DNA of 38,248 bases from Pseudobdellovibrionaceae bacterium (GTDB lineage: Bacteria; Bdellovibrionota; FAC87; UBA2466). Shown here one piece after another: positions 1-16,573 of the stretch; position 1 is the stretch's first letter; the number at the start of each line of letters is the position of its first letter. A program made the position numbers and the translations under genes. Under the pieces are notes generated by a model, which did no database searches, was not told where the DNA came from, and saw nothing but the letters and a program-made list of their open reading frames with translations. The stretch lies in the NCBI GenBank assembly GCA_023250715.1, contig JAHFAF010000011.1, positions 1 through 38,248 on the forward strand. The letters are read 5' to 3'.

Positions 1-7
1 CGGTCAT
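1..7 (-). CDS. Start of next operon gene, cut by left edge
   Basis: On the minus strand an ATG at 7-5 overlaps the TGA stop (6-4) of the ketosynthase gene in the ATGA arrangement used elsewhere in this operon. Only two codons (Met-Thr) lie in the window, so nothing can be said about the product. The feature shows only that the operon probably continues to the left. Confidence 0.4.
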
Positions 8-942
8 ATATTTTCTCCACTTCTAAAAATTGCAGTTCCAAAGAAACTTCCAATTCCCACGCCTACGACGGCAAAAAGATCACCCGGTTGAAGAATCTTT
101 TTTTCTAGAGCGCGTTCTAGATTGAGAAATGCATCGTTGCAGTAGCAATGTCCGATATCTGCCAAAAGCTCCAAGTAAACCCGGTTGCGCGGAAATCCAC
201 TCTGCTGACAAAATCGTCTCCACGTCGTCAAATTCACGTTGTGGGGAAATATCCAACGCAGGTCTTTTAGGTTTACTCTCGCTTTTCCGAGTGCCGCATC
301 AAGTGATTCTCGCAGCCGTGTTTGATATACCTTCCCGAATTCCTTTTGGCCTTCTTTATCCTGGTAAAATCCTGGGTAAAATCGAGTGTCTCTCACGATC
401 GCCTGGGACAAGAGCTCTAGGCCGTCCGGCTCACAGTCGAATAATACGGCAGTCGCCGCATCACCCATAATTGTCGAATGAGAAATGTGGCGAGTTTCCG
501 GCAAAAAACCCGTGCTATCCCCTATCAGCATGAGAATATTCTTATAGCGACGGCTGGCCGCATCGACGAGAGAGAGAGCCCCAATGGCTGACGCGCAATT
601 TAAATGAGATATCCCAAGTGTGGGGACATCACCCAACCCATTCTTTTCAAGTGCTCTTTTCAGAGGCTGATATCCCATCGGGGATTGCGCAAGAATCGAA
701 TGGGCGTAAAAAATACAATCCACGGTGGGCTCATCAACTTTTTCCAAGAGTCGTTGAGTAGCCAGCGCAAGAAGATCCTCTAGTTTTTCCTCAGCGGCTG
801 CACGCGGGATTTGTTTCAGGCCGTGGACTCGATCAAGAAGCCTTGCTTCATTCTTGCTCCCGCCATTGCGAAAGACCGCTTCTTCGGTGCTTTCTCGCCC
901 AGGGGGGACGAAACTTGCGATGGCGCGTATCCCGATGCTCAT
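4..942 (-). CDS. Ketoacyl-ACP synthase III-like condensing enzyme (second copy)
   Basis: This 312-residue thiolase-fold enzyme has the length and layout of FabH/PqsC-type synthases. The nucleophile is Cys116 in the segment HLNCASAIGAL, and the catalytic His234 lies in FPHNVNLTTW. The usual Asn of the Cys-His-Asn triad (GNTS in FabH) is replaced by His265 in GHCYCND. The C-terminal glycine-rich strand GVGIGSFFGTAIF is typical of the family. I chose the ATG at 942 because it overlaps the upstream stop as ATGA; an in-frame extension to 1047 would run far into the upstream gene. It probably condenses an activated acyl group with a carrier-bound or CoA-bound partner. Its coupling to the catalytically empty ketosynthase just upstream suggests a heterodimer like PqsBC. 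The substrate is unknown. Confidence 0.85.
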   Translation of the reverse strand: MSIGIRAIASFVPPGRESTEEAVFRNGGSKNEARLLDRVHGLKQIPRAAAEEKLEDLLALATQRLLEKVDEPTVDCIFYAHSILAQSPMGYQPLKRALEKNGLGDVPTLGISHLNCASAIGALSLVDAASRRYKNILMLIGDSTGFLPETRHISHSTIMGDAATAVLFDCEPDGLELLSQAIVRDTRFYPGFYQDKEGQKEFGKVYQTRLRESLDAALGKARVNLKDLRWIFPHNVNLTTWRRFCQQSGFPRNRVYLELLADIGHCYCNDAFLNLERALEKKILQPGDLFAVVGVGIGSFFGTAIFRSGENI

Positions 943-1712
943 TCGGGCCTCTTCAGTAGGAATCCTCGCGATCTTCCGCAACCCTCTTGTAAAGCCAGTA
1001 AGTAGGGCTGGGTGCCCTCCTTCATCCACTTTTCCATGGCGAGCCAAAAGGCGGACACGGCGGAATCCGGTGAGAGGTTGTTTTCCGAAAGAAGAGCGAC
1101 ATCCTCAGCGGGCACTTTCGCTTGAGCCAATAAAGCTGTCTTCAATTCGAGTGCATGAGTATAGGGTACGGCGCCAGTGGCAAGAATTTTGGTCCCCTCA
1201 CCCGCCTCTAATAATAGGGCAACCGCGGTGTCTTTCAACTCGCCGACTTTGGGCCAAGGCACTTCCATCGGCAGAGTCGATTGTTCAACTGTGATGAGGA
1301 GGGCTTTTTTCGCTCCCCCCGTTGCAAAATAATCTTGGGCGAGATCGAGAGCCGTGAACGAAGCGCCTTTTTCTTGGTCCGATACCGCAAAGGCAAACGC
1401 ATTCAGCCCATAGCGCTCGAGGAGAAAACTTGTCGTTGAATGATAGGCGATGGTGTTCGGAAGGTAATGGGCGAGGATCAGCAGATCCACACCGGCCAGA
1501 GCTTCCTTTCCACCTAGCTTCTCGATGGCCTGGACGCAGAGGCCCTCAAATGTACTGAATTTTCCTTTTCCCATCGCCTCCACGGTTAACGGAAGTTGGT
1601 ACAGGGAAAACAGATCGCGGTAGAAATCAGCGCCGAACGGTCTAAAAGTCTGGTCCGGCATTTCATTTAAGGTTACCGACGCAATTCCAGCTATGTTGAG
1701 CTGATGTTGCAT
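939..1712 (-). CDS. Ketosynthase-fold protein lacking catalytic residues
   Basis: This 257-residue protein looks like a shortened ketoacyl synthase III. It retains thiolase-fold strands, for example the segment ending ALLITVEQST and a C-terminal GCGRSRGFLL strand. The nucleophile segment reads SDQEKGASFTALDLA with no Cys, the PHNxNL histidine segment reads LLSENNLSPD, and the GNTS-like segment is absent. It is therefore probably not a catalyst by itself. By analogy with PqsB, which pairs with active PqsC, it may be the structural half of a heterodimer with the next gene, to which it is coupled by ATGA. The start is the ATG at 1712, which shares one base with the stop of the carrier protein gene (TGATG). 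A TTG one codon earlier is also possible. It could instead be a scaffold or chain-length factor. Confidence 0.75.
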   Translation of the reverse strand: MQHQLNIAGIASVTLNEMPDQTFRPFGADFYRDLFSLYQLPLTVEAMGKGKFSTFEGLCVQAIEKLGGKEALAGVDLLILAHYLPNTIAYHSTTSFLLERYGLNAFAFAVSDQEKGASFTALDLAQDYFATGGAKKALLITVEQSTLPMEVPWPKVGELKDTAVALLLEAGEGTKILATGAVPYTHALELKTALLAQAKVPAEDVALLSENNLSPDSAVSAFWLAMEKWMKEGTQPYLLALQEGCGRSRGFLLKRPE

Positions 1713-1981
1713 CAATGAACCGTCACTCCGCTCTTCTCTAGTGTCGAGACGATGTAACTCGCAAGATTCCCCACGGTCTTGAAGTGCTCGACGTCCAGAG
1801 TCTCCGGATCGATGACTAGCCCGTCGATGACCTCTTCGAGAGCCATCAATAGCTCGAGCGAGGAAGTGGAATCCATATTCAGATCTTCGAACAGTCGAGT
1901 TTCAGGTGTAACGTTACTGACTGATTGCAGCTTCAAAACGTTTTGAAGCACCGGTTTCATATTCTCGATAATGGTGTTCAT
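1712..1981 (-). CDS. Acyl carrier protein
   Basis: This is an 89-residue discrete acyl or peptidyl carrier protein. The phosphopantetheine attachment site is Ser38 in EDLNMDSTSSLEL, followed by an acidic helix (MALEEV) as in standard carrier proteins. The start at 1981 is supported by AGGAG a few bases upstream. The first 68 bases overlap the 3' end of the decarboxylase gene in another frame. In this operon the protein most likely carries the aminoacyl group that the ATP-grasp enzyme attaches and the decarboxylase trims, as BtrI does in butirosin biosynthesis. It could be converted to the holo form by the AcpS encoded at 7873-8238. It is not the housekeeping ACP by context, because no fabD/fabG/fabF genes adjoin it. 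Confidence 0.9.
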   Translation of the reverse strand: MNTIIENMKPVLQNVLKLQSVSNVTPETRLFEDLNMDSTSSLELLMALEEVIDGLVIDPETLDVEHFKTVGNLASYIVSTLEKSGVTVH

Positions 1982-3260
1982 TGTTTACTCCTTTAAAAGA
2001 GATCAAGTTCTGTTTTCTGAGCATGTCCTGAGGAAAGTCTCGTTCTCGAATCAGAAATGCTTCTCCATTGTGGACGAGCACTTCAGAAGGGAACCCGAAG
2101 CTCAGGAAATTCACTGGTGAGGCAGTCGGCCCGTAAGCTCCTGAGTTCAACACCGCGATAAGATCCCCTTGCAGAATGGGGGGGAGCTTAACGGCCTTCC
2201 CCACTACATCATTCGGCGTGCAAAGGGGCCCGGTCACATGAAAAGCCTTTTCGGGGGTCCCATTCCAGTCGCAGGCATTTTTAATCGGAAAATTTCTTTT
2301 TACGAAGGAACCCACTCCGACAGCAGCCATGTGGCAATTCGTTCCGCCATCCGTGATTGCGAAAGTCTCTCCCATCGAGTCCTTCACATACTGAACGCGT
2401 GAAAGGAGCATTCCGCACTCGGCGGAAAGGTAACGGCCGAGCTCCATGATGAGGCGGGTCTGGGGGTGGGCCACATGGAACTTCTCGAGTGCCGGATTCA
2501 TCTCGACCCCGAGCTTTTCCAAGTCGAGGCGAGACTCATCATCGAAATAGGGAACACCAAGGCCGCCACCAATGTCGACCATCTCGAGAGAAAAACCCCC
2601 TTTGGCCGCACACTGTTCGGCAAGGTCGAGGATGCGAACGGTATTTGCGAGCACTTCTTCCCAGGCGAGTATTCTCGTACCGGAATAGATCTGAATTCCT
2701 TTGATGCGCGCATGGGGGAATTGTTGTTGCATCGTCGCTGCCAACTCAATTGCGTGCGTTTCATCAATTCCAAACTGCCGCGGCTTTCCTCCCATCGTGA
2801 GCCGAGATCCTTTTACGGAAAAGGCAGGGTTGATTCTAAGAGCGATGTCTTGAGTCTTTCCCAAGCTTTTTGCGATGGCGTGGATTCTCTCCATTTCCCC
2901 GAAGGACTCACAAATAATCGCGTAAACACCGTTTCTTATACAGGCCTCGAGCTCCTGCTCCGTCTTGCCAGGGCCGACAAAGATAATCCCATTACCGGAT
3001 GTGCCGCATCGTAAAGCCGTTGTTAATTCAGCGAGAGAAGAACACTCGGCATTGGCACCCAAAGAATGAAGCAGGCCGTAGACAGAAATATTCGGATTTG
3101 CTTTCAAGGAATAGAAAATCTCAAGGCTCGGATGGAACGCCTTGCGCACGTTGGTGATTTGCCGCTTAAGAATATCCCCATCATAGAGAAAGAGCGGCGT
3201 TTGAAATCTGTCCGCTATTTCAGTGACGGAAATTCCCTGGACTTCTAGTACGTCTCTCAT
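1914..3260 (-). CDS. PLP-dependent decarboxylase, ODC/DAPDC fold (BtrK-like)
   Basis: This 448-residue fold-type III PLP enzyme has all family hallmarks. Lys53 in YSLKANPN forms the Schiff base. A GGGLGVPY phosphate-binding loop, ELGRYLSAECG, GPLCTPNDVVGK and GAYGPTASPVNF follow in the usual order. Diaminopimelate or ornithine decarboxylases act on free amino acids. Here the gene is flanked by an ATP-grasp ligase (ATGA overlap) and a carrier protein (68-base overlap), so I infer that it decarboxylates an aminoacyl-S-ACP, as BtrK does with glutamyl-ACP to give 4-aminobutyryl-ACP. The amino acid is not determinable from sequence. A stand-alone diaminopimelate decarboxylase is less likely, because no lysine-pathway genes are nearby. 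Confidence 0.88.
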   Translation of the reverse strand: MRDVLEVQGISVTEIADRFQTPLFLYDGDILKRQITNVRKAFHPSLEIFYSLKANPNISVYGLLHSLGANAECSSLAELTTALRCGTSGNGIIFVGPGKTEQELEACIRNGVYAIICESFGEMERIHAIAKSLGKTQDIALRINPAFSVKGSRLTMGGKPRQFGIDETHAIELAATMQQQFPHARIKGIQIYSGTRILAWEEVLANTVRILDLAEQCAAKGGFSLEMVDIGGGLGVPYFDDESRLDLEKLGVEMNPALEKFHVAHPQTRLIMELGRYLSAECGMLLSRVQYVKDSMGETFAITDGGTNCHMAAVGVGSFVKRNFPIKNACDWNGTPEKAFHVTGPLCTPNDVVGKAVKLPPILQGDLIAVLNSGAYGPTASPVNFLSFGFPSEVLVHNGEAFLIRERDFPQDMLRKQNLISFKGVNNEHHYREYETGASKRFEAAISQ

Positions 3261-4615
3261 GTCACGTTCCTTTCAAGGGCACCTAAGACTTCGGTTAATT
3301 TTTGGTTGAGAACTTGAACTTCTTGTTCGCTTCGCTCGATGACTAATCCATAGAGACGACCCGGCCAATGAGCGCCCCCGCAAGCTTTAGCAGCGTTCAG
3401 TGTCGCGAAATCATTAATAAGAAACCCCGTCCCCTCGGCGCGTCTATAGATATATGGGCCCAAAACCTGCTCCAACTCTTTAAAGGACCAGGCCCTTTCA
3501 AGCTTGAACGCAAAGTGTTTTGCAAGAGCGCTTCTTCCGGGAAGCACGTCTTCCGCGATCTTGTTTTGATATGTGGACATATTGAATCGCGCGTTGATCT
3601 CAAGGTTCGGATAGACGACGTTGTCAGTCGACAAAATTGCATCCACTCCTACCATTCCGAAATACCCCTGGCGGTAAAGTGCCGGGCCTAATACTTTCGC
3701 CGTTTGCTCAAGCTCCTCGACTTGAGATAGATTTAGAGAGGTGGGAATGCGGTGGCCTTGATGGACGCCATTCTCCGTCACGGCATCTCTAACGCCGCAA
3801 AACCCCACTCTTCCATCTTTCGCGATAAGGAACTGATAATTGATGTCACATTTCTTATCGATCCATTTTTCGACGACGACGCGAATGACGCCGCCAGGTT
3901 TCGCATTGAGCTGCCGTTCCCACATTTTTAGGAGGCTTGCAGATTTCTCAGGAGAGGTAACGACTGAAAGGCCCTTACCCGACACTCCGAATGCGTCTTT
4001 TACAACTAGCTTTCCACCTTCATCCAAAACATTTTGATGGCGCCGAAGAGCTTCCTTGAGTTCCTCCAATGAGGAACAGCAACTTCCAGGAATAGCTCGG
4101 ATTCCTAAGCTCTCATTTAATTGCCGGCTCAAAATCTTAGAGTTCACGGCTTCGACAATGGCGGAAGCCGGGCCGCAGAGGGAAAGGCCGGTTTTTTGGC
4201 TCAGTTCCTCCTCTAAATGAGAGACTCCGAAGGGCATGAGGGCGGCATTTAGTCCCTTCAATGCCTGTAGGCCTTCTTCATCCGCCAGAAAATTCTCCGT
4301 GATATTTAATTCAGGCCGATTTGTTTTGGGGAAAAGAACGTGCGGAAGCTGAAATCCCTCACCGCGAAGATAAGCTGCGTACTCAGGATCCAGTGGCTCC
4401 TTTAGCAAAACATAGTCTTGCGGCTCCGCTAAGAACAAAGCCAGCTGGTCCATCCGATTTACTAGCCAACGCGCAGAAGGGGCCGTGAGGGAAGGAAGCG
4501 CCAAGGCTCCTACCGACTTTCCCCAGAATTGCTCCACCTCGATATTTCCAAGGTGAATGAGTGCAGTACATGGGTCTCCACTCAAATAATCTCTCAGTTC
4601 CGTCACGAACGTCAT
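3257..4615 (-). CDS. ATP-grasp ligase, probable amino acid:ACP ligase (BtrJ-like)
   Basis: This is a 452-residue ATP-grasp protein. Visible elements are the flexible phosphate loop KDAFGVSGKGLSVV near the middle, an ATP-binding strand VVVEKWIDKKCDINYQF, and the metal-binding LEINARFNMSTYQ motif near residue 350. ATP-grasp ligases activate a carboxylate as acyl phosphate and pass it to an amine or thiol. Placed between a ketosynthase and a decarboxylase/carrier pair, it most resembles BtrJ of butirosin synthesis, which loads L-glutamate onto an ACP thiol. The gene begins 18 bases after the upstream ketosynthase stop and ends in an ATGA overlap with the decarboxylase, so the three enzymes are made together. 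A peptide-bond-forming role is the main alternative. Confidence 0.82.
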   Translation of the reverse strand: MTFVTELRDYLSGDPCTALIHLGNIEVEQFWGKSVGALALPSLTAPSARWLVNRMDQLALFLAEPQDYVLLKEPLDPEYAAYLRGEGFQLPHVLFPKTNRPELNITENFLADEEGLQALKGLNAALMPFGVSHLEEELSQKTGLSLCGPASAIVEAVNSKILSRQLNESLGIRAIPGSCCSSLEELKEALRRHQNVLDEGGKLVVKDAFGVSGKGLSVVTSPEKSASLLKMWERQLNAKPGGVIRVVVEKWIDKKCDINYQFLIAKDGRVGFCGVRDAVTENGVHQGHRIPTSLNLSQVEELEQTAKVLGPALYRQGYFGMVGVDAILSTDNVVYPNLEINARFNMSTYQNKIAEDVLPGRSALAKHFAFKLERAWSFKELEQVLGPYIYRRAEGTGFLINDFATLNAAKACGGAHWPGRLYGLVIERSEQEVQVLNQKLTEVLGALERNVT

Positions 4616-4633
4616 GGCCTAACTCACTAAAGT

Positions 4634-5563
4634 TCAGTGTCTCAGGACAGCGGCCGCGAAAGTCGCGCCGAGTCCAACACTCGCTAATAAAAAATTATTC
4701 CCTCTTTTTAAAAATCCTTCATCGACCGCTGAGCGGTAATTCAAGAAAACATCCGAGCAAAAACAATGGCCCTGATTGGGGAGGTCCTTGAGATAGATCT
4801 TCTCCAGCGGATAATTCGCGGCTTTAGAGACGCGCTTCCAGGAGGAAAGATTGATGTTATGGGGGAGGATGCAGTCGAGCTCGCTCCATGTAAGCCCGGC
4901 CTCGCTCAAGGCTCCCGACATCACCTCAATTAACGTAGGGACATACTTTTCTTCGAACTCCTTTAAAGTGGCGGCATCCAGGCCGACCCCACCACTGAAT
5001 TTACCCAATGTTTTTTGCTTCACCGCTAATACTTGATTGCTCTCTCCTTCGCTCTTGAAAAGAACGGCAGTCGAGGCTTCTCCCATGATCGTGGTGTGGG
5101 GGATGTGCTGCACGCTGGGGGAAAATGCTTTTTCTCCAGTGACTACGACCGCGTATTTTTCTTTTGGGTTACTTTGGAAACGGCGGCGAAGCACATCCAT
5201 CGCAGTGATGCTCGATGCGCAGTTCTGCATGGTGAGAGAAAATGTTTCCGCCGATTCCAACCCAAATTCACTTTGAAGTTTTCTCAAAGGGCTGTGAGGA
5301 AAAGGAGCGACTTGCTGAATGGTGTGGCAGTAAATGAAAGTCCCAATTTCACTCCGATCGACATTCACTCTTTCGAAGAGATTCTCGAGAGCGGGACGTA
5401 CCAAGTCTTCTGTCACTCCTTCTTTCATCATCGGAATGCGCTGAATGTTGTGGAAGCGGGAAAAAATTTCTTTCTGGGCGCGATTGATGCCTAGATAGTT
5501 TTGAAGGTCGGCGATTTCCACCCGACGCGCAGGAATGTAAGACCCTACTTCACCCAGAACCAC
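4634..5563 (-). CDS. Ketoacyl-ACP synthase III-like condensing enzyme (first copy)
   Basis: First visible gene of the operon; 309 residues, FabH length. The nucleophile is Cys115 in LTMQNCASSITAM and the catalytic His235 lies in LPHNINLSSW. As in the second copy, the triad Asn is replaced by His266, in GHCFCSDVFLN. The shared GHCxC motif shows that this copy and the one at 4-942 form one subfamily. The GTG start at 5563 is chosen because GGAGG stands about eight bases upstream. A role in extending a carrier-bound or CoA-bound acyl starter is inferred from the family. The 106 bases before it could hold the operon promoter; I see a TTGACT but no convincing -10 box. Confidence 0.85.
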   Translation of the reverse strand: MVLGEVGSYIPARRVEIADLQNYLGINRAQKEIFSRFHNIQRIPMMKEGVTEDLVRPALENLFERVNVDRSEIGTFIYCHTIQQVAPFPHSPLRKLQSEFGLESAETFSLTMQNCASSITAMDVLRRRFQSNPKEKYAVVVTGEKAFSPSVQHIPHTTIMGEASTAVLFKSEGESNQVLAVKQKTLGKFSGGVGLDAATLKEFEEKYVPTLIEVMSGALSEAGLTWSELDCILPHNINLSSWKRVSKAANYPLEKIYLKDLPNQGHCFCSDVFLNYRSAVDEGFLKRGNNFLLASVGLGATFAAAVLRH

Positions 5564-5669
5564 AGCCGACCTCCAGGGAAAAAATTAGCGGTCATGGACG
5601 CAGTGAGTCAATTCAAAAAATTCAACTAGCGATTAAATTTTGGAGAGAGAGAAATCCTATCTAGTGCCG

Positions 5670-6032
5670 TTAAAACGTCGGGAAAGGGCGTTTTACCTCG
5701 CACAGGTAGAGAGAATTTCCGTCGGGATCGTTAAAAAATATGATCCGAGCCGTTGACCGTTCCAAGATACCGGATGAAAAATTTACACCTCGGCTCTCGA
5801 GCGATTTCTTAGCCTCATCTAACGAGGAAACGTTCAGACCAAGTGAGAGTTTCTCTCCGCCTGCTAATTTTTGATCGGTGGGAGAGATTCCAACCGTCAA
5901 ACCGGACATGGAGAGCTCTGCCCATTCGTTACCGTTCCGAAATCCAATTCGGAACGCCAACGTTTCTTGGTAAAACTTCACGGCCTGTTCGAAATTTGTC
6001 GTCTGAATTGTTACGTTCGCCTCTTGAAACAT
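5670..6032 (-). CDS. VOC (glyoxalase/bleomycin-resistance fold) protein
   Basis: This 120-residue protein has the two beta-alpha-beta-beta-beta modules of the vicinal-oxygen-chelate superfamily. It opens with FEQAVKFYQETLAFRIGFRNGNEWAEL and closes with the usual FFNDPDGNSLYLCE strand, where Glu is a typical metal ligand. Members include glyoxalase I, dioxygenases and antibiotic-binding proteins; the sequence does not tell which. The ATG at 6032 has GGGAG eight bases upstream. It lies on the same strand as the ketosynthase operon, 106 bases upstream of it, so it could be read through into the operon or be independent. Confidence 0.85.
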   Translation of the reverse strand: MFQEANVTIQTTNFEQAVKFYQETLAFRIGFRNGNEWAELSMSGLTVGISPTDQKLAGGEKLSLGLNVSSLDEAKKSLESRGVNFSSGILERSTARIIFFNDPDGNSLYLCEVKRPFPTF

Positions 6033-6047
6033 GCATTTCTCCCTTTA

Positions 6048-6227
6048 GCAGTTCCCTGAAAAACCCCATTTGGGCCAAAAAAATGCTTTTTCGGCTGCGC
6101 CTTCGTCATCGTCGTAAAAAGTCCTCATCGGCCATTCCATGGCCGCCTCCGGGCTTTTTCCTCCTCTTCCTCGTCTCACTCGAAAAATCATTTTTTTGCC
6201 TCCAAAGCGGGCTTTTCAGGAAACTGC
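6048..6227. repeat. Long inverted-repeat element, copy A
   Basis: About 180 bases without a convincing gene, framed by arms of 46-47 bases at 6048-6093 and 6181-6227 that pair along most of their length (GCAGTT at one end with AACTGC at the other, then CCTGAAAA, AAAAAAATG and TTTTTCG with their complements). The interior holds a perfect 7-bp hairpin, CGGCCAT-TCC-ATGGCCG, at 6129-6145, followed by CCTCCG. A second element at 16558-16732 has the same plan and the same core. It occupies most of the gap between the VOC gene and the GIN-domain gene. It could be a miniature mobile element or a structured RNA; no function is assigned. Confidence 0.7.
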
Positions 6228-6260
6228 CAGAACAATAACTGGCACGGCTGTAACACTTTG

Positions 6261-6297
6261 TGACGTAACGTGTCAAAATGGGTTGACGTAGTATAAA
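6261..6297 (+). promoter_or_regulatory. Possible operator/promoter region of the GIN-domain gene
   Basis: An imperfect palindrome TGACGTAACGTGTCA lies at 6261-6275, followed by TTGACGTA at 6283-6290, which repeats the same TGACGTA half, and a TATAAA at 6292-6297. The boxes are not spaced as a standard sigma-70 promoter, because the TTGACG and TATAAA are only three bases apart. The palindrome is the better-supported signal and may bind a regulator. Confidence 0.3.
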
Positions 6298-6362
6298 AAT
6301 TTATCGGAAGACATTAAGAACAGGTTGGTAACTCACACGGCTTAACTAAAGGAGGCCCCCAA

Positions 6363-6842
6363 ATGATTCGTTTCAAGTTGTCTTCCCTGGTAGCGATTGC
6401 AGCTCTTACGTTGTCTCTTTATCCGCTTGCTGCTTGTGCAGATCATAGAGAGCAAGCCACGGTAACTGAAAAGGTGGTTAAGGTGGACGGTAAGGAAATG
6501 AAAAATGCGAAGGTGAAACTTCGTGGAAGCAAAGACACGGTTTTGAAGGACGTTGATTACAACGAATTGCGGGTTGATTCATCGGGCTCTGCGGATCTCG
6601 AAGTTTCTGGTCGCGCGAATACGTTGATTCTGGATGTTTCCGGATCTTCCACGATTCACGCTGAAGATCTCGAAGCCGATGAAGTGGAAATCGATATGTC
6701 CGGAAGCGCGGATCTTTACGTGAAGGCCAATAAGTCCTTTCGCATCGATGGCTCTGGCTCGGGCAAGATCTACTTGCACGGAAAAGGCGAAGTAGTACGT
6801 CACCGTGTCACCGGAAATGTCCGCGTTTATCGCAAGAAGTAA
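6363..6842 (+). CDS. Exported GIN-domain (DUF2807-like) protein
   Basis: This 159-residue protein has an N-terminal signal peptide (hydrophobic run LVAIAALTLSLYPLAACA). The body is a regular parallel-beta repeat: VDSSGSADLEV, LDVSGSSTIHA, IDMSGSADLYV and IDGSGSGKIYL. The spacing of these SGS turns is the signature of the head GIN domain found in putative adhesins and envelope proteins. The start has AAAGGAGG upstream. The next gene begins 17 bases later and is probably co-transcribed. Location is periplasm or outer surface; the exact role is unknown. Confidence 0.85.
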   Translation: MIRFKLSSLVAIAALTLSLYPLAACADHREQATVTEKVVKVDGKEMKNAKVKLRGSKDTVLKDVDYNELRVDSSGSADLEVSGRANTLILDVSGSSTIHAEDLEADEVEIDMSGSADLYVKANKSFRIDGSGSGKIYLHGKGEVVRHRVTGNVRVYRKK

Positions 6843-6859
6843 TTTCGCGAGAGGGCCAA

Positions 6860-7963
6860 ATGCGAACTACTTTTTGCGCGATCCTGCTTGCTGCCCTAAT
6901 TGGCTGTAGCGGGAAAGCTATAAAAGAATCTGAAATCCCGACCCTTCAGGGGGTCGGGATTCGTTCCTTCTCTTTCCTAGACAAAACTCGGAATCGAAAT
7001 CTCATTACTAAGGTTTGGTACCCGACTGAAGCGAATGAGGGTACACGCCTAAGTTTCATTTTTGACTCGGGTGCAATCGAAGGGGCCGCGTGGCCTGCGG
7101 CCAGGGAGAAGCTTCCGGTTGTATTTCTTTCTCATGGAAGCGGCGGTTATGCGGAGACGCTCTCCTGGCTTGCCTCTCTTTTGGCCTCCCATGGATTTTT
7201 GGTCATTGCGCCAAACCATCCCGGCGATACGTTTGGGAATACAAACCCCAATGGAATTTTTAGAAAATGGGAACGTGCGCGCGATATTACTTACATTATT
7301 GATCACCTAGACTCCGTGCCCGAGCTTGCCGGACGAGCGGATAAAGCTAGGATGGGAATCGCGGGTTTTTCCATGGGTGGCTATGCTGCTCTTGCTCTGG
7401 GTGGCGTGGGGTTCGACAGAAAATCTTACGAATCCTATTGTGCAAGTCATGCGAGTCCCGATTGTCGACTCTTTGACGGCGTAAACCGTGCGAAGCTCGA
7501 TTCAAAAGGCGAGCAGGTGAATCTAGCGGATTCCCGCCTGCGCGCCGTTTTAGCCTTGGCCCCTTTCGGTGGGCCCGGAGCAGTGGTCGGAAAACAGAAC
7601 GGAGTCGCTATTTACATTGCAGGAACCCTAGACGACGAAATTCTTCCGTTCGAAAAGAATGCTCGTCATTATTCGAATTTGATTCCCCAAAGTCGCTTTA
7701 AGGAGTTCCCCAAGGGGGGACACTACGCGATGGTGGGGCCCTGCACGGAAAAAGGAAAGCTCTTCGCTTCCGAAATCTGTGCCGATCGTTTTGGTGTGGA
7801 TAGAGCCAAGATTCAGGGGGAACTGGGCCCTGAAGTATTGGCGTTTTTCAGAGATTCATTGGGAGGGAAAAAGTGCGCGTTGGGTGCGATATCGTCGATA
7901 TCAGACTCTTCTCCGAGACATTGTCTAGGGCGGGCTTCTGCGAGCGAGTCTTCGCTCCAGTAG
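6860..7963 (+). CDS. Lipoprotein alpha/beta-hydrolase (dienelactone hydrolase/PAF-acetylhydrolase-like)
   Basis: This 367-residue predicted lipoprotein has a lipobox ending at Cys16 (ALIGC). It carries an alpha/beta-hydrolase fold: the oxyanion segment FLSHGSGGYAET, nucleophile Ser171 in GFSMGG, acidic residue Asp258 or Asp259 in GTLDDE, and catalytic His288 in KGGHYAM. The fold is that of esterases close to plasma PAF-acetylhydrolase and dienelactone hydrolase. The substrate cannot be named. Oddly, the last 30 codons overlap the start of the holo-ACP synthase gene in another frame. The tail after FFRDSLGGKK has no family features, so the functional protein may effectively end there or the reading frame may once have stopped earlier. 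Confidence 0.85.
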   Translation: MRTTFCAILLAALIGCSGKAIKESEIPTLQGVGIRSFSFLDKTRNRNLITKVWYPTEANEGTRLSFIFDSGAIEGAAWPAAREKLPVVFLSHGSGGYAETLSWLASLLASHGFLVIAPNHPGDTFGNTNPNGIFRKWERARDITYIIDHLDSVPELAGRADKARMGIAGFSMGGYAALALGGVGFDRKSYESYCASHASPDCRLFDGVNRAKLDSKGEQVNLADSRLRAVLALAPFGGPGAVVGKQNGVAIYIAGTLDDEILPFEKNARHYSNLIPQSRFKEFPKGGHYAMVGPCTEKGKLFASEICADRFGVDRAKIQGELGPEVLAFFRDSLGGKKCALGAISSISDSSPRHCLGRASASESSLQ

Positions 7964-8238
7964 AAATTGAATACTGTGAAAGTACGGTAAATCGTGTGGC
8001 GTCCTACGCTGCGCGGTTCGCCGCGAAGGAAGCCTTCGCGAAAGCTCTAGGGACTGGATTTTTTTCAGAAGGGATCACTCCTCGGGAAGTCTGGGTAGAA
8101 AGGGAGGCTTCTAAGCGCCCCCTATTGGTGCTGTCGGAGAAGTCCGAGGCCGCATTGCGACGGCAGGATTTTGAAACGGCGGAGGTTTCTTTAAGCCATC
8201 ACGGCGACTACGCCATGGCAATTGTCGCTCTAACCTGA
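7873..8238 (+). CDS. acpS: Holo-[acyl-carrier-protein] synthase
   Basis: This 121-residue AcpS-type phosphopantetheinyl transferase moves 4'-phosphopantetheine from CoA to the serine of an ACP. Metal-binding Asp6 is in VGCDIVDI and Glu53 in the hallmark RFAAKEAFAKALGTG. The C-terminal VSLSHHGDYAMAIV is also diagnostic. The length is normal. The start is a GTG at 7873, which places VGCDIV at the N-terminus as in homologues. The first 91 bases overlap the esterase gene and the last 128 bases overlap the asparagine synthase-like gene on the other strand. It may serve fatty acid synthesis, the carrier protein at 1712-1981, or both. Confidence 0.95.
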   Translation: MRVGCDIVDIRLFSETLSRAGFCERVFAPVEIEYCESTVNRVASYAARFAAKEAFAKALGTGFFSEGITPREVWVEREASKRPLLVLSEKSEAALRRQDFETAEVSLSHHGDYAMAIVALT

Positions 8239-9931
8239 TTTTTGGAGCTGGCATCCAATCGTGACAAAGCGGCCGATGGGACTTCACTAGGAGAGTTTCC
8301 TGATAGAACGGGCCTCCATAACGTGCTCTAGCTCCTGCCTCAAAAGTTTCCTCCTCGAGCTTGCTCCAGCGCCAAAGGCAATAAAGTTGCCCTTCGGGAA
8401 CAGGAAGTTCTTTTTTTCTTAGTGCCACAGGAGGGGCAAAAATTAAGCGTCGCCACCCAAGCTCCACAGCTCTATTGAGAAATTTCAGCCTTTCTCGTCG
8501 GTAACGGGCATCATTCTTGGCTAACGTAAAAAGAACTTCTTTCGTGCCCGTGGCGCCGTGAAGGGTCTCCTTCTTCGCGCTCAAAGAAGCAGCAGGCAAG
8601 AGGGGGCGAACCGCCTCTCGCCACAAAATCTTATCTTCCATTTGAATGGAGAAGGGATCCTTCCCATTTCCCCAGTCCCGAATGTTTTGTTTTTGTGAGG
8701 GGAGAAAATTTGTGAACGACTCGATGAGGTGCGCGAGCGGCACGCGATTCTCTAGGCCCAGCTCTCCGAACACAAGACCCGCGCGAACTCCCTCGGAATA
8801 GGAAAACTGATCGCAAACCGCGTGAAAGCCTTCTTCTAATCTATCCCGGTGCAAGAGGCTCCATGGCCGGTAACTTCTCCCTGCTTCATCCGGCCCGCCA
8901 GCGGTGAGGATGGCCTTTCCTCCATGGGCTTTTGCCGTCTGTGCGACGAGATCCTCGGCAAGCCCGCAGGCGATGTTGAAGTAGTCCGGGCCGAGAACTT
9001 TTAAGACTCGATCGAGCGAACGGTTTGCAATGTCGGGCGTAAGGTGAGGCGTGTGGTGAGGGATCTTGATCCCTTCTCGCTCGAGAGAACGAATGAGATT
9101 TGCTGCCATCGGGAGATCTCCGATGCCTTTTCCTTCGGGTTGAGCGGGATCCCAGGGGCGAATCGTGATGGCGCCGCCAATTTTCCCATTCGATTCCAAT
9201 GCCGCGCAGGCGGTGACGAATTGGCTGTCGATACCTCCAAGTGCCGTGAAAAGGACTGAAGGATCTTCAGTGAGATGACTGCGAACGCTGGCACGTGCTC
9301 TTTCGCGAACTTCGATTGCACATCCTGCGACCAGGTCTTTCGATGCACGTTTCAGGAGCCGAAACCAAAATTCACACTTCACGCCCTTTTCATTTGCGAT
9401 TCCGGAGCAACCGGCTGGCACGTTCTTACATGCATTGGGAGAGACCCCTAGAGCTTGCAGTGCTTCGGGTGTACTCGCGAAAGCGATGGCCCCGTCTTTA
9501 GTAGAGCCGTAAACTAGGGGTGAGATCCCCCAGCGGTCTCTACCGAAAAGGACTTCCCAGTCTCCCTTGTCACTTGATCGATAGAGAAGAAAGGCGAATT
9601 GCCCCTCAATTTTGGGAAGAAAATCGAGCCCGTCTTCCAGGAGCCCGTGAAGGAGTACTTCAGTATCCGTTTTTACCTTCCAGCCACGGGCCTCCGAGAG
9701 CTCCTTCCAATTGTAAATTTCGCCATTGAAAACAAGGGTGTTACTTTTCTGTTCCAAGGGCTGCGGATTGTGCCCCACACGCACGAATCCAAGGGCCGTG
9801 TGGGCGATCCAACCGTGGGGAAGGATTCGCTCTTTCGCAGCTTCGGGCCCCCGTCGCGACATCACCTCTAGTGCTTTGGATCGCTCTTTTGGACCGGCCT
9901 TAACGCCAAATTTCCCTGCAATTGCACACAT
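8111..9931 (-). CDS. Asparagine synthase-like glutamine amidotransferase
   Basis: This 606-residue protein has two domains. Residues 1-200 form an Ntn glutaminase with nucleophile Cys2 (MCAIAG), SRRGPEA, NGEIYN and GRDRWGISPLVYG. Residues from about 200 form the adenylating synthetase; its pyrophosphate loop reads LGGIDSQ at 231-237, against SGGxDS in typical AsnB, and LENRVPLAHLIESF matches the conserved substrate region. It transfers ammonia from glutamine to an acyl-adenylate. Whether the product is asparagine or an amide in a secondary metabolite is open. The altered first loop residue and the nearby carrier-protein operon make a specialised role possible. Its last 128 bases lie antisense to acpS, an unusually long tail-to-tail overlap. 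Confidence 0.85.
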   Translation of the reverse strand: MCAIAGKFGVKAGPKERSKALEVMSRRGPEAAKERILPHGWIAHTALGFVRVGHNPQPLEQKSNTLVFNGEIYNWKELSEARGWKVKTDTEVLLHGLLEDGLDFLPKIEGQFAFLLYRSSDKGDWEVLFGRDRWGISPLVYGSTKDGAIAFASTPEALQALGVSPNACKNVPAGCSGIANEKGVKCEFWFRLLKRASKDLVAGCAIEVRERARASVRSHLTEDPSVLFTALGGIDSQFVTACAALESNGKIGGAITIRPWDPAQPEGKGIGDLPMAANLIRSLEREGIKIPHHTPHLTPDIANRSLDRVLKVLGPDYFNIACGLAEDLVAQTAKAHGGKAILTAGGPDEAGRSYRPWSLLHRDRLEEGFHAVCDQFSYSEGVRAGLVFGELGLENRVPLAHLIESFTNFLPSQKQNIRDWGNGKDPFSIQMEDKILWREAVRPLLPAASLSAKKETLHGATGTKEVLFTLAKNDARYRRERLKFLNRAVELGWRRLIFAPPVALRKKELPVPEGQLYCLWRWSKLEEETFEAGARARYGGPFYQETLLVKSHRPLCHDWMPAPKIRLERQLPWRSRRDGLKKPPPFQNPAVAMRPRTSPTAPIGGA

Positions 9932-10022
9932 TCAGCAGTAGTCCTTAAAATTAATGCGCTGTGTAAAATCGTTCAAATTTGTTATACCGGAAGAAATCGC
10001 CGAGGGCGAGGAGGCTAGTCCT

Positions 10023-11366
10023 TTGTTTGTTCCATTTGCACGGCTGATCCTGTTGGTTTCGACCCCATTGTTACTCTCTTCAGTGGTCAACGTTCTCATT
10101 CAATTTTCCAATACTTACTTCATGGGCCACGCCACGCCCGAAGCCTTGTATTTGGTGGCACTCTATATCCCGATTTCTTTTCTGATGTTGGCTATCGTGG
10201 AAGGGATTTGCGTTACCAACCAGGTCATTGTGGCAAAGAAGACAGGGCAGGGAAGTCTTTTCGAAATGCCTGCTATTTCGTTTTCACTGACTGTGACTGG
10301 GATGGGAATCTTAGGAGCCTTGGCTCTTTCTTCTTATGCTTACGGCGCGAAGGTGATTCCCCATCTCTTTGCCATCAGCCCGGCACTGGGCTCGCGCTTC
10401 GTCCCTTTTCTCACGGCAATGTTTGCGACCAGCATGCTCACCATTCCCGGAATGATTCTTGATTCCACGTTGCGCGGAATGGGAAGAACGGGTTTAGCGT
10501 TCGGCCTCTTACTAGGGTATGCGGCCGTCTACATGGGACTTCTCTTTCACTTTACGAATGGTCTTGGCATGCAGGAGCTTGCGATTCCCTACGCGACGGT
10601 GAGTGCCTCGCTCGCCTTTTTCCTGGCCACTCTTATCGCCGTGAGGGTGGTGACAGCAAAAGAGATTCCAGTCTGGAAATTGTTCTTTCACCCGGAAGCC
10701 TTCATTGTTCTTCGCTACGTAGGAATTCCAGTAGCACTCTCGCACCTACTGATTTTCGTGAGCACGTTCTTTTACAATCGTATTCTTGCTCCATTCGGTG
10801 AGGATGTGGTCTCGGGGTTCGGCGTGGCTTTCCGAATTCAAACGCTCATCATTCTTCCGGCGCTGACATTCGGCGAAGGGATTTCCATTTTGATGAATCA
10901 AAAAATGGGAGCAGGCCGTCCGAAGGAGGCGTACCTACTTTTTCGAACGGGCGTCATTCTATGTTTCTCTCTCTATGCCTTCCTCTCCTTGGCGATTTCA
11001 CTCGCGGGTGAGGCTCTCCCGGCGCTGCTGACGCCCAATGCAGTGGTGATTCGCGAAGCCGTCGAGTACATTCGCGCCGTCGCTCCGACTTATTGCTGGA
11101 TGGGAGTTCTCCTTACTGTCCTTCTTATCCTCGAACAGACGGACAATGGCTTTCGTGCCTTTGCGTTGAATTTGGTCTATTTCGTCGCCATCATTGGAAT
11201 TGGTTATTGGGTGACCCGCGAGTGGCGGGATCCTCGCTACTTTTTTCAGACGATTGCTTACGGTAATTTAATGGGCCTTTCGGTGATTGCTTGGGAATGG
11301 CGGCGGCAGAAGCAAAAGTTTGAAGGAATTGCGCGAGCTCCTCGTGCGGGGTTAGCGACGGCATGA
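10023..11366 (+). CDS. MATE-family multidrug/metabolite exporter
   Basis: A polytopic membrane protein of about 447 residues with twelve hydrophobic segments in two homologous halves, typical of MATE antiporters that expel organic compounds using Na+ or H+. The segments LLSSVVNVLIQFSNTYFMGH and VVSGFGVAFRIQTLI recall conserved MATE helices 1 and 8. The TTG at 10023 is preferred as start because GAGGAGG sits eight bases before it; an in-frame ATG at 9954 without a clear ribosome site would leave only 22 bases to the divergent asparagine synthase-like gene. It ends in an ATGA overlap with the TPR gene. Export of the product of the neighbouring carrier-protein operon is a possibility, not shown. 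Confidence 0.87.
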   Translation: MFVPFARLILLVSTPLLLSSVVNVLIQFSNTYFMGHATPEALYLVALYIPISFLMLAIVEGICVTNQVIVAKKTGQGSLFEMPAISFSLTVTGMGILGALALSSYAYGAKVIPHLFAISPALGSRFVPFLTAMFATSMLTIPGMILDSTLRGMGRTGLAFGLLLGYAAVYMGLLFHFTNGLGMQELAIPYATVSASLAFFLATLIAVRVVTAKEIPVWKLFFHPEAFIVLRYVGIPVALSHLLIFVSTFFYNRILAPFGEDVVSGFGVAFRIQTLIILPALTFGEGISILMNQKMGAGRPKEAYLLFRTGVILCFSLYAFLSLAISLAGEALPALLTPNAVVIREAVEYIRAVAPTYCWMGVLLTVLLILEQTDNGFRAFALNLVYFVAIIGIGYWVTREWRDPRYFFQTIAYGNLMGLSVIAWEWRRQKQKFEGIARAPRAGLATA

Positions 11367-13804: not shown

Positions 13805-13963
13805 TCTCTCTCCTCCAGGAAATTGTTGATGCAGAGCGTCTAAATTTTGAAGGGTTAAGTCAATCGTGGAAAAAATTGAATGTGCCAGTCCAAGCCAAAC
13901 TAATGGGCATTTTGGAAGCCCTAGGCCTCCTGTTCCAATATTTAATGCAATGTGTTATTTGAC

Positions 13964-13983
13964 CCTCCTGGGCCGCCAGGAGG
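13964..13983 (+). promoter_or_regulatory. Hairpin burying the desaturase ribosome binding site
   Basis: CCTCCTGG (13964-13971) pairs perfectly with CCAGGAGG (13976-13983) around the four-base loop GCCG. The 3' arm contains the complete Shine-Dalgarno AGGAGG, four bases before the GTG start at 13988. A second CCTCCTG at 13926-13932 could pair with the same site. The arrangement would hold back translation until the stem is opened by temperature, a ligand, a protein or an sRNA. Confidence 0.6.
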
Positions 13984-13987
13984 TACC

Positions 13988-14860
13988 GTGACGCTCGTGG
14001 AAAACCACAATAGGCAGACATTTGTCCTATCCAATCTTATTCAGGTTCTTGTTATTCATTTGGTCGCTATCGCAATCGCCCCTTTTTATTTCACCTGGGG
14101 CGCGCTTCTCTTTGCCGTAGTAACGCTATTCTTGTTTGGCTACTCGATGGGGATCTTCCATCACATGTACCTCACCCACCGTTCCTTCAAATGCGCACGA
14201 TGGGTAGAGCAGCTCGGAAGTCTCTTCGGGACTCTCACCTGGCGAGGGCCCTTTGCTCCGCCGATTCAGTACGTGGCGATGCACAAGATTCATCACGCTT
14301 ACTCCGATACCGAGCTCGATCCGCACACTCCGACGAAAGGCGTTTTCTTTGCGTTGATGAGTTGGTTCTGGCAAATGCCTTATGGGTTCACTCGGTCCGA
14401 ACTTTATTCGAAGTACGTTCCAGAGATGGCGAATGATTCTTGGTATGTTTTCTTGGATAGAAATACGAATCTTTTGCAGCTTGCTTGGGGAGTCTTATGC
14501 TTCCTGGGTGGCTGGGCGTTTGGCGACATAGAGAACGGGGTTCGTTTCTTGCTCTACGGCGTATTCGTTCGAGCGCTATTCACACTTTATCTCATCAACG
14601 CGGTCGATTTAATCAACCACACGATTGGCTATCGATCGTATGAGACCAAGGACAATTCCACGAACTCGTTTATCATGGCGGCGGTGCATTTGGGCGGTGC
14701 AATTTCTTGGCATAACAACCACCACGCGCACCAACATTACTTTACAGTGAAGGCCCGGTGGTGGGAGTTCGACGTGCATCACCGTTTCCTTCAAGTGCTA
14801 TCAAAATTCGGCTGGGTCTCGGATATCGTGATTCTCGATGAGGTGCGCCGTGGCCGGTAG
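13988..14860 (+). CDS. Membrane fatty acid desaturase, acyl-CoA Delta9 type
   Basis: This 290-residue integral membrane di-iron desaturase introduces a double bond into acyl chains. The three His clusters are visible in the right order: HMYLTHRSFK, HKIHHAYSDTELDPHTP and HNNHHAH, with hydrophobic pairs before the first and between the second and third. The spacing is that of stearoyl-CoA Delta9 desaturases. The start is GTG 13988, next to AGGAGG; an upstream in-frame GTG at 13952 lacks a ribosome site. It heads an operon with a second desaturase-like gene and an AlkB-like gene, all overlapping. Regulation at the level of ribosome access is likely from the leader hairpin. Confidence 0.92.
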   Translation: MTLVENHNRQTFVLSNLIQVLVIHLVAIAIAPFYFTWGALLFAVVTLFLFGYSMGIFHHMYLTHRSFKCARWVEQLGSLFGTLTWRGPFAPPIQYVAMHKIHHAYSDTELDPHTPTKGVFFALMSWFWQMPYGFTRSELYSKYVPEMANDSWYVFLDRNTNLLQLAWGVLCFLGGWAFGDIENGVRFLLYGVFVRALFTLYLINAVDLINHTIGYRSYETKDNSTNSFIMAAVHLGGAISWHNNHHAHQHYFTVKARWWEFDVHHRFLQVLSKFGWVSDIVILDEVRRGR

Positions 14861-15752
14861 TCTTCCGCGAGAACTGAATTCACGTTCTCATTTAAAGGCG
14901 GTACTTGGAATCTGTTGGGCGCTCCTTTTGTTCTTCGGATCCTGGTTTGCCGTCACACAAATTGGATTTTCCCCCCTTGCCTTACCGTTCTTGATTGCCG
15001 GGGGCTACGGGATGCTTCTCCTAGGCTTCATGGGGCATGATGGGACGCATTTCAGTCTTCACGAGAATAAGATCGTGAGTTCTTGTCTTGGGATTCTCCT
15101 TACGGCCCCCATTTTTCCTTACATGGTGATGGGTTTTACGATTTCTCATTGGAATCACCATAAGCATACCAATACGAATGAGGACCCAGATTCCGTTCTT
15201 TTCGCAAAGTTTAAGAACTTATTAACTCGGTCCTTTTTGGCGCGGCCCTATAGTTTTTGGGAGTATGGGACCAATACTCTGCGATTAGCCGTGGGCGTGC
15301 CATTGCCTTTCAAATATCAGTTTCCGCTGACCGCGAAGGAATTGCAGGGGCTCGCCCGGGTGAATGTTCTTTTGAGTCTGGCATGGGGGGCTCTCTACAC
15401 CTGGGTCGCCTTCCATGCACCGCAGGCTTTTACGGCACTTCTTGCTGTCTATCTTTTTGGGACGGTCTTGAGTGGTCTGAGCCCTTATATCGAACATACG
15501 GGCACGGGCGTTGGCCGGGGGGTCGATACGCGTACCTCCGAGGGCTGGTGGTGGGATTTTTTCATCTTGGGAAATAATTATCACGTAGAACACCATCTTT
15601 ACCCGACAGTGCCGTTCTATAACTTGAAGCGGGTCCACCAACATCTGAAGCGCGAGGGTTATTATACTGCTGAGAAGTACTTATCGGTGGGGGTGTGGGA
15701 TACCTATCGTTACACCTTGAAAAAATATCCCTATCCATTAAATGCATCCTGA
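14850..15752 (+). CDS. Fatty acid desaturase-superfamily membrane enzyme
   Basis: This protein of about 300 residues carries the di-iron His boxes of the fatty-acid-desaturase/hydroxylase superfamily: GHDGTH near residue 60, HWNHHKH near 100 and NYHVEHHLYP near 245. Four or more hydrophobic helices surround them. It is closer in box pattern to front-end or carotenoid-hydroxylase-like desaturases than to the preceding Delta9 enzyme, so it may act on a complex lipid. The GTG at 14850 has GAGG six bases before it; an ATG at 14838 in frame is the alternative. It overlaps the upstream gene by 11 bases and shares one base of its stop with the next start. Confidence 0.88.
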   Translation: MAGSLPRELNSRSHLKAVLGICWALLLFFGSWFAVTQIGFSPLALPFLIAGGYGMLLLGFMGHDGTHFSLHENKIVSSCLGILLTAPIFPYMVMGFTISHWNHHKHTNTNEDPDSVLFAKFKNLLTRSFLARPYSFWEYGTNTLRLAVGVPLPFKYQFPLTAKELQGLARVNVLLSLAWGALYTWVAFHAPQAFTALLAVYLFGTVLSGLSPYIEHTGTGVGRGVDTRTSEGWWWDFFILGNNYHVEHHLYPTVPFYNLKRVHQHLKREGYYTAEKYLSVGVWDTYRYTLKKYPYPLNAS

Positions 15753-16573
15753 TGCAGTTTCCTCCTGGCCTTTATTATGACGCGTCCTTTGTCCGCCCCT
15801 CGGATAAAGAAGAAATCCTCGCGTGGCTTTCCACCCTTCACCCCATTTGGGAAGAGCGCTATTCGCCCCACCACCCGCCGCCCCCCGGGCAGGTGCAGCG
15901 CCAGCTTCTTCGACCGGTGTATTGGCTGGGGAATTGGCAGTTTGCTTGCCTCAATTACTATCATCCGCCGAAAGGAATATTCCACCGGTGTGTGCGGGCC
16001 GAGCCCTTTCCCTCTATCTTTCAACGGCTCATTTCTAAAGTAGAAAAGATTGCAGTACGGCTTTTTCGCGGACGGGAAATGCCGGCGGGGTGGCATCTAA
16101 ATACCTGTTTGGTGAATTTCTATGGCAAAAAACTCGAGGGAGACCGCTGGGTCGATACGGCTCGAGTGGGGGAACATAAAGACTTCGAGCCGGGGCCGGT
16201 CGCTTCGATTTCTCTGGGCGAGCGAGCCATGTTTCAATTTGTGGCTAGCAGAGGTTTAGGGCAGCGCAATGCCGTCGCCTTTCAACAATGGCTCGAAGAT
16301 GGATCGCTGCAGCTATTTGGTGGAGAGAAATGGAAGAACCGGTTATTTCATCGCGTGCAGCGAGTGGATCGTAAACTGGGGCAAAACTTCCCACTTCATG
16401 TCGAGAATTTCGAGACGAGACGAATAAATTTCACGTTCCGCTATGTTCCCGAGGCGCATATTGCCCCATTTTGCGAATTGCCGCGGGGATCTGCGGCCGA
16501 TGTTCGGGGCTACATGGAAGAATTGGCGGAGCATTCCCAGTTTTTTCGGGGCGCGCTGAGAACTCGTCCCTAA
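15752..16573 (+). CDS. AlkB-like 2-oxoglutarate/Fe(II) oxygenase
   Basis: This 273-residue protein has the double-stranded beta-helix signature of AlkB proteins. The iron ligands are His142 and Asp144 in VGEHKDFEPGP and His200 in RLFHRVQRV; SISLGERAMFQF lies between them, and RRINFTFRYV (Arg224, Arg230) matches the RxNxTFR motif that binds 2-oxoglutarate. AlkB enzymes oxidatively remove methyl groups from nucleic acids, and some homologues act on other substrates. Being the third gene of a lipid desaturase operon (TGATG coupling at 15750-15754), it may not be a DNA repair enzyme. Its stop codon falls inside the left arm of repeat element B. Confidence 0.8.
   Translation: MQFPPGLYYDASFVRPSDKEEILAWLSTLHPIWEERYSPHHPPPPGQVQRQLLRPVYWLGNWQFACLNYYHPPKGIFHRCVRAEPFPSIFQRLISKVEKIAVRLFRGREMPAGWHLNTCLVNFYGKKLEGDRWVDTARVGEHKDFEPGPVASISLGERAMFQFVASRGLGQRNAVAFQQWLEDGSLQLFGGEKWKNRLFHRVQRVDRKLGQNFPLHVENFETRRINFTFRYVPEAHIAPFCELPRGSAADVRGYMEELAEHSQFFRGALRTRP

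Follow-up and report, generated by a model that had tools for sequence, protein, structure and literature searches.

An ATP-grasp-containing operon of a Pseudobdellovibrionaceae bacterium that probably makes an enamide lipid thioester on its own acyl carrier protein

What does a tightly coupled operon make when it encodes an ATP-grasp ligase, a PLP decarboxylase, an acyl carrier protein (ACP) and several ketosynthase-like proteins? The question is raised by one end of the window, the 38,248-nucleotide stretch of DNA analysed here, which is the entire contig C377 of a metagenome-type assembly from a Pseudobdellovibrionaceae bacterium (4.5 Mb in 542 contigs, 97.5% complete, contamination 8.6%). 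Six genes in the ORF list of the window, all on the minus strand, fill positions 4-5563 (Table 1). The six coupled genes of a preliminary description were all present in the order it gave, with successive gaps of 18, -4, -68, -4 and -4 bases, and PLP Lys53 and ACP Ser38 were both verified in the sequence. KAS2, listed as 4-1047, probably starts at the ATG at 942, since this codon overlaps the preceding stop by 4 bases.

A seventh start had been noticed at the edge of the window, and extension of the contig to the left proved it real. Contig C328 shares 291 bases (about 98% identity) with window positions 1-291, and the operon runs on there with three further genes, the first encoding a 125-residue half acyl-CoA dehydrogenase-like protein (half-ACAD) and the last followed by an unrelated gene in facing orientation. 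C377 and C328 are probably parts of one nine-gene operon, the join resting on a short overlap between what are probably strain variants. GC content is 50% in the operon against 52% in the rest of the window, with similar GC3, and a recent transfer from a high-GC actinobacterium was rejected for want of any such compositional sign. A promoter and terminator scan upstream of the operon gave no excess over shuffles. The upstream VOC protein was discarded as an operon member, having no similarity to the VOC protein of a Rahnella cluster described below, as was the neighbouring DUF2807 gene, whose product has no similarity to the Rahnella DUF2807 protein. Elsewhere in the window, a divergent asparagine synthetase-like gene (8111-9931) overlaps the end of an opposite-strand holo-ACP synthase gene (7873-8238) by 128 bases, and two genes for fatty acid desaturases and one for a 2OG-Fe(II) oxygenase lie consecutively and overlapping at 13952-16573.

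Table 1. Genes of the operon in the window and on contig C328
Feature	Location	Strand	Basis
KAS1, KAS III-like, Cys115/His235/His266/Asp271 (GHxxxxD)	4634..5563	-	PF08541 above cut-off; triad columns
ATP-grasp ligase with PreATP-grasp domain	3257..4615	-	PF18604, PF02222
PLP decarboxylase, BtrK clade, Lys53, LCTPND	1914..3260	-	BtrK 2j66 E 3.9e-85; tree 100/100
Free-standing ACP, Ser38 in MDST	1712..1981	-	PF00550 above cut-off
KSx, degenerate protein of KAS III fold, lacking Cys, His and Asn/His	939..1715	-	Profile and AlphaFold2/Foldseek
KAS2, the other intact KAS III-like enzyme, GHxxxxD present	4..942	-	PF08541 above cut-off (scored as ORF 4-1047)
Half acyl-CoA dehydrogenase-like protein, 125 aa	contig C328		4-base overlap with preceding gene
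Acyl-CoA dehydrogenase (ACAD), 385 aa	contig C328		Overlap 4; catalytic EGT Glu present
Last operon gene, 229 aa, no family assigned	contig C328		Overlap 8

The decarboxylase scored 290 bits against BtrK, its best solved relative, versus 177 bits against the best diaminopimelate decarboxylase (DAPDC). In a tree of 21 rows it fell on one side with BtrK and the actinobacterial and proteobacterial cluster members (100/100), the other side being formed by three solved DAPDCs and LysA of the same genome (C48), and within the BtrK clade it grouped with the members from Rahnella and Agrobacterium (96/93). The CE[ST]xD motif of DAP decarboxylases is replaced by LCTPxD, which reads LCTPND in the window and LCTPED in BtrK; LCTP is present in 66 of 69 cluster decarboxylases, and the genome's separate LysA keeps CETTD. 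The score against the LysA profile TIGR01048 (295.1 bits) lies under the cut-off of 297.9. Tree, motif and the separate LysA elsewhere in the genome rule out a LysA identity, and with it the grouping with free DAPDCs that the preliminary description had considered. Its proposal that an amino acid is loaded on the ACP and decarboxylated there is supported by these results, and an omega-aminoacyl thioester is the likely intermediate. The top NCBIfam match of the decarboxylase, also below its cut-off, is TIGR03099, the exosortase A-associated decarboxylase of unknown function, a family that may, too, act on carrier-bound amino acids. Close relatives of the decarboxylase (47-54% identical) are also encoded on plasmids of Streptomyces and Rhizobium gallicum (L100 9983-14893, L101 9980-19124, L102 8911-12858), where an AMP-ligase, a carrier protein and ectoine synthase accompany them, both Streptomyces loci adding a diaminobutyrate acetyltransferase; these loci perhaps carry out a carrier-borne beta-alanyl version of ectoine synthesis.

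The gene set is conserved across phyla, as a survey of gene neighbourhoods suggested in the preliminary description made clear. A scan of species genomes with two short peptide patterns, which came from two sequences, gave 75 ATP-grasp loci, actinobacterial without exception, and members elsewhere may have escaped it; among 369 genomes of the host phylum, relatives of the ATP-grasp protein were not found besides the window's own. The recurrent order around the actinobacterial loci is KAS1, ATP-grasp, decarboxylase, ACP, KSx, H202 and ACAD. These loci were collected with the ATP-grasp protein alone, and the gene set is not a product of chance, because in 54 of the 75 the first six genes agree in order and strand. 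The ATP-grasp gene stands nearly always immediately before those for the decarboxylase and ACP; at the seven loci where the decarboxylase gene is not beside it, the genome always encodes one, in six cases on the same contig at a distance of about 20-30 kb. This gene order occurs in about 60 actinobacterial genomes, often near NRPS and SbnA/SbnB genes. SbnA- and/or SbnB-type genes were present at 23 loci, 18 of which have an NRPS in reach, and representatives exceed the curated cut-offs for diaminopropionate enzymes, neighbours that are expected for enamidonin/autucedine-type lipopeptides. The NRPS adjacent to the S. nigrescens module has five condensation-type and three adenylation domains, a count compatible with a tetrapeptide but not proof of one. 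Of the long ORFs tried as PKS candidates in NRPS-free loci, two were acyl-CoA dehydrogenases and the others matched nothing in Pfam. Rahnella, Agrobacterium and Rhodobacterales have versions of the module with an AMP-ligase, and the clusters of Rahnella, Agrobacterium vitis, Tritonibacter and Gemmobacter carry AMP-ligases instead of the ATP-grasp gene; these last are plasmid modules (L083-L086) that also encode several KAS III-like enzymes and acyl-CoA dehydrogenases, frequently together with a P450.

The window was likened to the Bol, Afc and Aut systems and to BtrJ by published descriptions and gene content. Butirosin BtrI/BtrJ/BtrK has, like the window, an ATP-grasp ligase (BtrJ), an ACP and a BtrK-clade decarboxylase, but it converts Glu to GABA and is without KAS III-like acyltransferases or a dehydrogenase. 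A literature search for BtrJ together with KAS III gave nothing useful, and the search for BtrK led to bolagladin. The bolagladin starter module of Burkholderia gladioli (BolO, BolC, BolN, BolM/BolP, BolQ) resembles the window in its free ACP, BtrK-like decarboxylase, KAS III-like pair and acyl-CoA dehydrogenase, which make dehydro-beta-alanine from carrier-bound Asp; deletion of the BtrK-like gene bolN abolishes the product, and deletion of the dehydrogenase gene bolQ yields a beta-alanine analogue (PMC7756342). It differs in having a VinN-type adenylating loader, not ATP-grasp, and in feeding a four-module NRPS, and BolM and BolP have Ser/Thr for the Cys that KAS1 and KAS2 keep. The Burkholderia afc cluster for AFC-BC11 (AfcQ, AfcK, AfcP, AfcL/O/R, AfcA, AfcE), like the window, is without condensation domains and combines side-chain loading, as proposed here, with decarboxylation on the carrier and with chain transfer by KAS III-like acyltransferases that have Cys, His and Asp. 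AfcQ/AfcP/AfcK load Asp and decarboxylate it on the carrier in vitro, and the reconstituted KAS III-like AfcL moves the peptidyl chain to an amine (PMC12186527). This system differs in its iterative VinN-type loader and in a fatty acyl-AMP ligase for acylation, neither of which is in the window operon. Both follow one logic, in which carrier-bound Asp becomes beta-alanine, is N-acylated and is then desaturated to dehydro-beta-alanine (PMC7756342, PMC12186527). The autucedine/olenamidonin/enamidonin clusters of Streptomyces olivaceus (aut/ole) likewise have a KAS III-like enzyme for acylation on an ACP, AutS/OleH being proposed to join acyl chains to dehydro-beta-alanyl-ACP, but they build an NRPS tetrapeptide with diaminopropionate (PMC11204786), whereas the window genome has no condensation domain match. 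Related actinobacterial loci carry the window-type ATP-grasp module with SbnA/SbnB and NRPS genes. The combination of genes, which the preliminary description could not place in any described pathway, shares its logic with bolagladin, AFC-BC11 and autucedine/enamidonin; the operon is no longer unassigned in this respect, while its ATP-grasp-based, NRPS-free form and its final product stay so.

All members of a dehydro-beta-alanine starter module (free ACP, BtrK-like decarboxylase, KAS III-like acyltransferase and ACAD) are present, the ACAD on C328, and what the operon probably builds on its ACP is an N-acyl-dehydro-beta-alanyl thioester, an enamide lipid. In favour of this reading, besides the conserved gene order, the BtrK-clade decarboxylase, the GHxxxxD motif of KAS1 and KAS2 and the published relatives, an ACAD with the catalytic EGT Glu lies in the same operon; against it, the assembly is 8.6% contaminated, the bolagladin and AFC-BC11 loaders are VinN-type adenylating enzymes rather than ATP-grasp, and the dehydrogenases stand on another contig behind a 291-base join, the half-ACAD match being weak. 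By analogy with the relatives, aspartate would be the most likely substrate. The closest solved relative of the decarboxylase, BtrK, uses glutamyl-BtrI, and a GABA product is possible, since BtrK acts on Glu and butirosin BtrJ is likewise an ATP-grasp ligase. Loaded glutamate would become GABA-ACP, and the dehydrogenase would then give a 4-acylaminocrotonyl (vinylogous) thioester, not an enamide. We consider this rather unlikely, as Asp is the substrate of the published modules with the same set of components (PMC7756342, PMC12186527), and orthologous modules adjoin NRPS and SbnA/SbnB genes, as would be expected for lipopeptides with dehydro-beta-alanine.

Three ketosynthases had been described, and all three proteins do have the KAS fold, with KSx lacking the Cys as stated; two are intact but of acyltransferase type and one is degenerate. 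KAS1 and KAS2 retain Cys and His, the position of the catalytic Asn of FabH is His in 30 of 30 relatives, and the Asp of GHxxxxD, five residues past the His, is invariant (79 of 79 aligned letters). The same motif is found in CerJ, ChlB3 and DpsC. From Cys and GHxxxxD, the sequences class KAS1 and KAS2 as putative KAS III-like acyltransferases (CerJ, ChlB3, AfcL), and a FabH-type condensing enzyme, with its Cys-His-Asn triad, was rejected. The earlier idea that the thioester feeds KAS III condensing enzymes is not supported, in view of these residues and of AfcL-type transfer to an amine (PMC12186527). KAS1 is 35% identical to the equivalent S. decoyicus gene product and is proposed to be the N-acyltransferase acting on beta-alanyl-ACP. 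KAS2, proposed to perform a second acyl transfer or release, grouped at 97/92 with its counterparts from Rahnella, A. vitis, Tritonibacter and Gemmobacter, in a tree with long branches and one row that was likely misread (L057). KSx matched KAS III structures by profile (E 3.5e-8), and its AlphaFold2 model (pLDDT 84) matched ChlB3/FabH in Foldseek at about 1e-11; the catalytic triad is conserved in none of 38 relatives, and KSx is proposed to be a non-catalytic partner that keeps the thiolase fold. The ACP is 45% identical to that of the Rahnella cluster.

This pairing of intact and degenerate KAS proteins resembles PqsC/PqsB, and PqsC is among the profile and fold matches. KAS1/KSx and KAS2 might then be PqsBC-like heterodimers forming a C-C bond from the aminoacyl thioester, the resulting beta-keto compound closing to a nitrogen ring, but this appears improbable: GHxxxxD of the acyltransferases is in both intact enzymes, the PqsC match is weak (E 1.8e-7 versus 3.6e-15 for CerJ), the operon is without a malonyl-handling gene, and the published relatives use KAS III-like enzymes for amide-type transfer.

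The half-ACAD matched PF00441 below the cut-off (E 0.0098), PF00441 gave sub-threshold matches in most members of its family and one above the cut-off, and the family profile did not match full ACAD. H202 and the 125-residue protein resemble parts of the ACAD C-terminal domain, and no more than this resemblance is claimed for the half-ACAD. The 229-residue product of the last gene was compared as a second degenerate KAS, with an hhalign E of 6e-4 at a probability of 28%.

The operon is without an AMP-binding gene and has an ATP-grasp enzyme in place of the VinN-type adenylating loader. Its ATP-grasp protein shares about 40-43% identity with the actinobacterial proteins encoded at the equivalent position, and it is proposed to load the side-chain carboxylate of the amino acid onto the ACP. 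The first matches of the family profile against the PDB were PGM1 and L-propargylglycine-glutamate ligase, which are amino acid/peptide ligases, and nine AMP-binding matches lie elsewhere in the genome, but it is highly improbable that the enzyme is an amide ligase joining a finished acid to an amino acid while another enzyme of the genome charges the ACP, as its gene occupies the AMP-ligase slot of the proteobacterial clusters, nearly always directly precedes those for decarboxylase and ACP, and has no other loader beside it in the operon. A second ATP-grasp protein of the window (32650-33897, ATP-grasp_4 family) adjoins a MATE transporter and an ABC transporter, and a more distant ATP-grasp and decarboxylase pair, mutually adjacent, occurs in some Amycolatopsis (G375:C22:243048-245644, similar in G374 and G377).

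As a loader, the ATP-grasp enzyme would join the side-chain carboxylate of L-Asp to holo-ACP, and the BtrK-type enzyme would strip the alpha-carboxylate on the carrier to give beta-alanyl-ACP. KAS1 would then pass a fatty acyl group via Cys115 to the beta-amine, probably together with KSx or another degenerate partner, and the acyl-CoA dehydrogenase with its half-subunit would desaturate C2-C3 to the enamide. These four steps, modelled on published relatives, would be followed by transfer of the chain by KAS2 to an amine or alcohol and release of the product without an NRPS; this last step, the choice of Asp and the product are speculative. The condensation domain PF00668 had no match in the 97.5% complete genome and was detected in control genomes that have it, so the chain must leave another way, and KAS2 is a candidate for its release by analogy with AfcL. 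As a tentative extension, the nine genes could release an N-acyl-(oligo)dehydro-beta-alanine lipid, which might, like AFC-BC11, be a light-sensitive foldamer. The ATP-grasp enzyme would in that case be a side-chain-specific, perhaps iterative carrier-protein aminoacylase, and pairs of an intact and a degenerate KAS III subunit would act as amide synthases.

Among the residues of antifungal and antibacterial lipopeptides, dehydro-beta-alanine enamides are rare, and the ATP-grasp starter module is a marker for a large set of unread actinobacterial clusters. The window holds a minimal version, its actinobacterial-type loader combined with a KAS2 and decarboxylase nearer to those of the proteobacterial clusters; this combination, in a genome without a detectable condensation domain, is new, and the loader is less new than it appears if the autucedine cluster already has an ATP-grasp gene. 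The operon would be a tractable system for amide bond formation by KAS III-like acyltransferases with degenerate partners and for enamide lipid release without an NRPS. The same genome also contains a second carrier-protein-type cluster near an FtsX permease (L098, G000:C45:8000-22000, about 3680-10698), with genes for an AMP-ligase, a rubrerythrin-like protein, a PPTase, class II aminoacyl-tRNA synthetase-like and thioester-reductase-like proteins, an AurF-type N-oxygenase and a further KAS III-like enzyme, whose site is of the GHxxxxD type.
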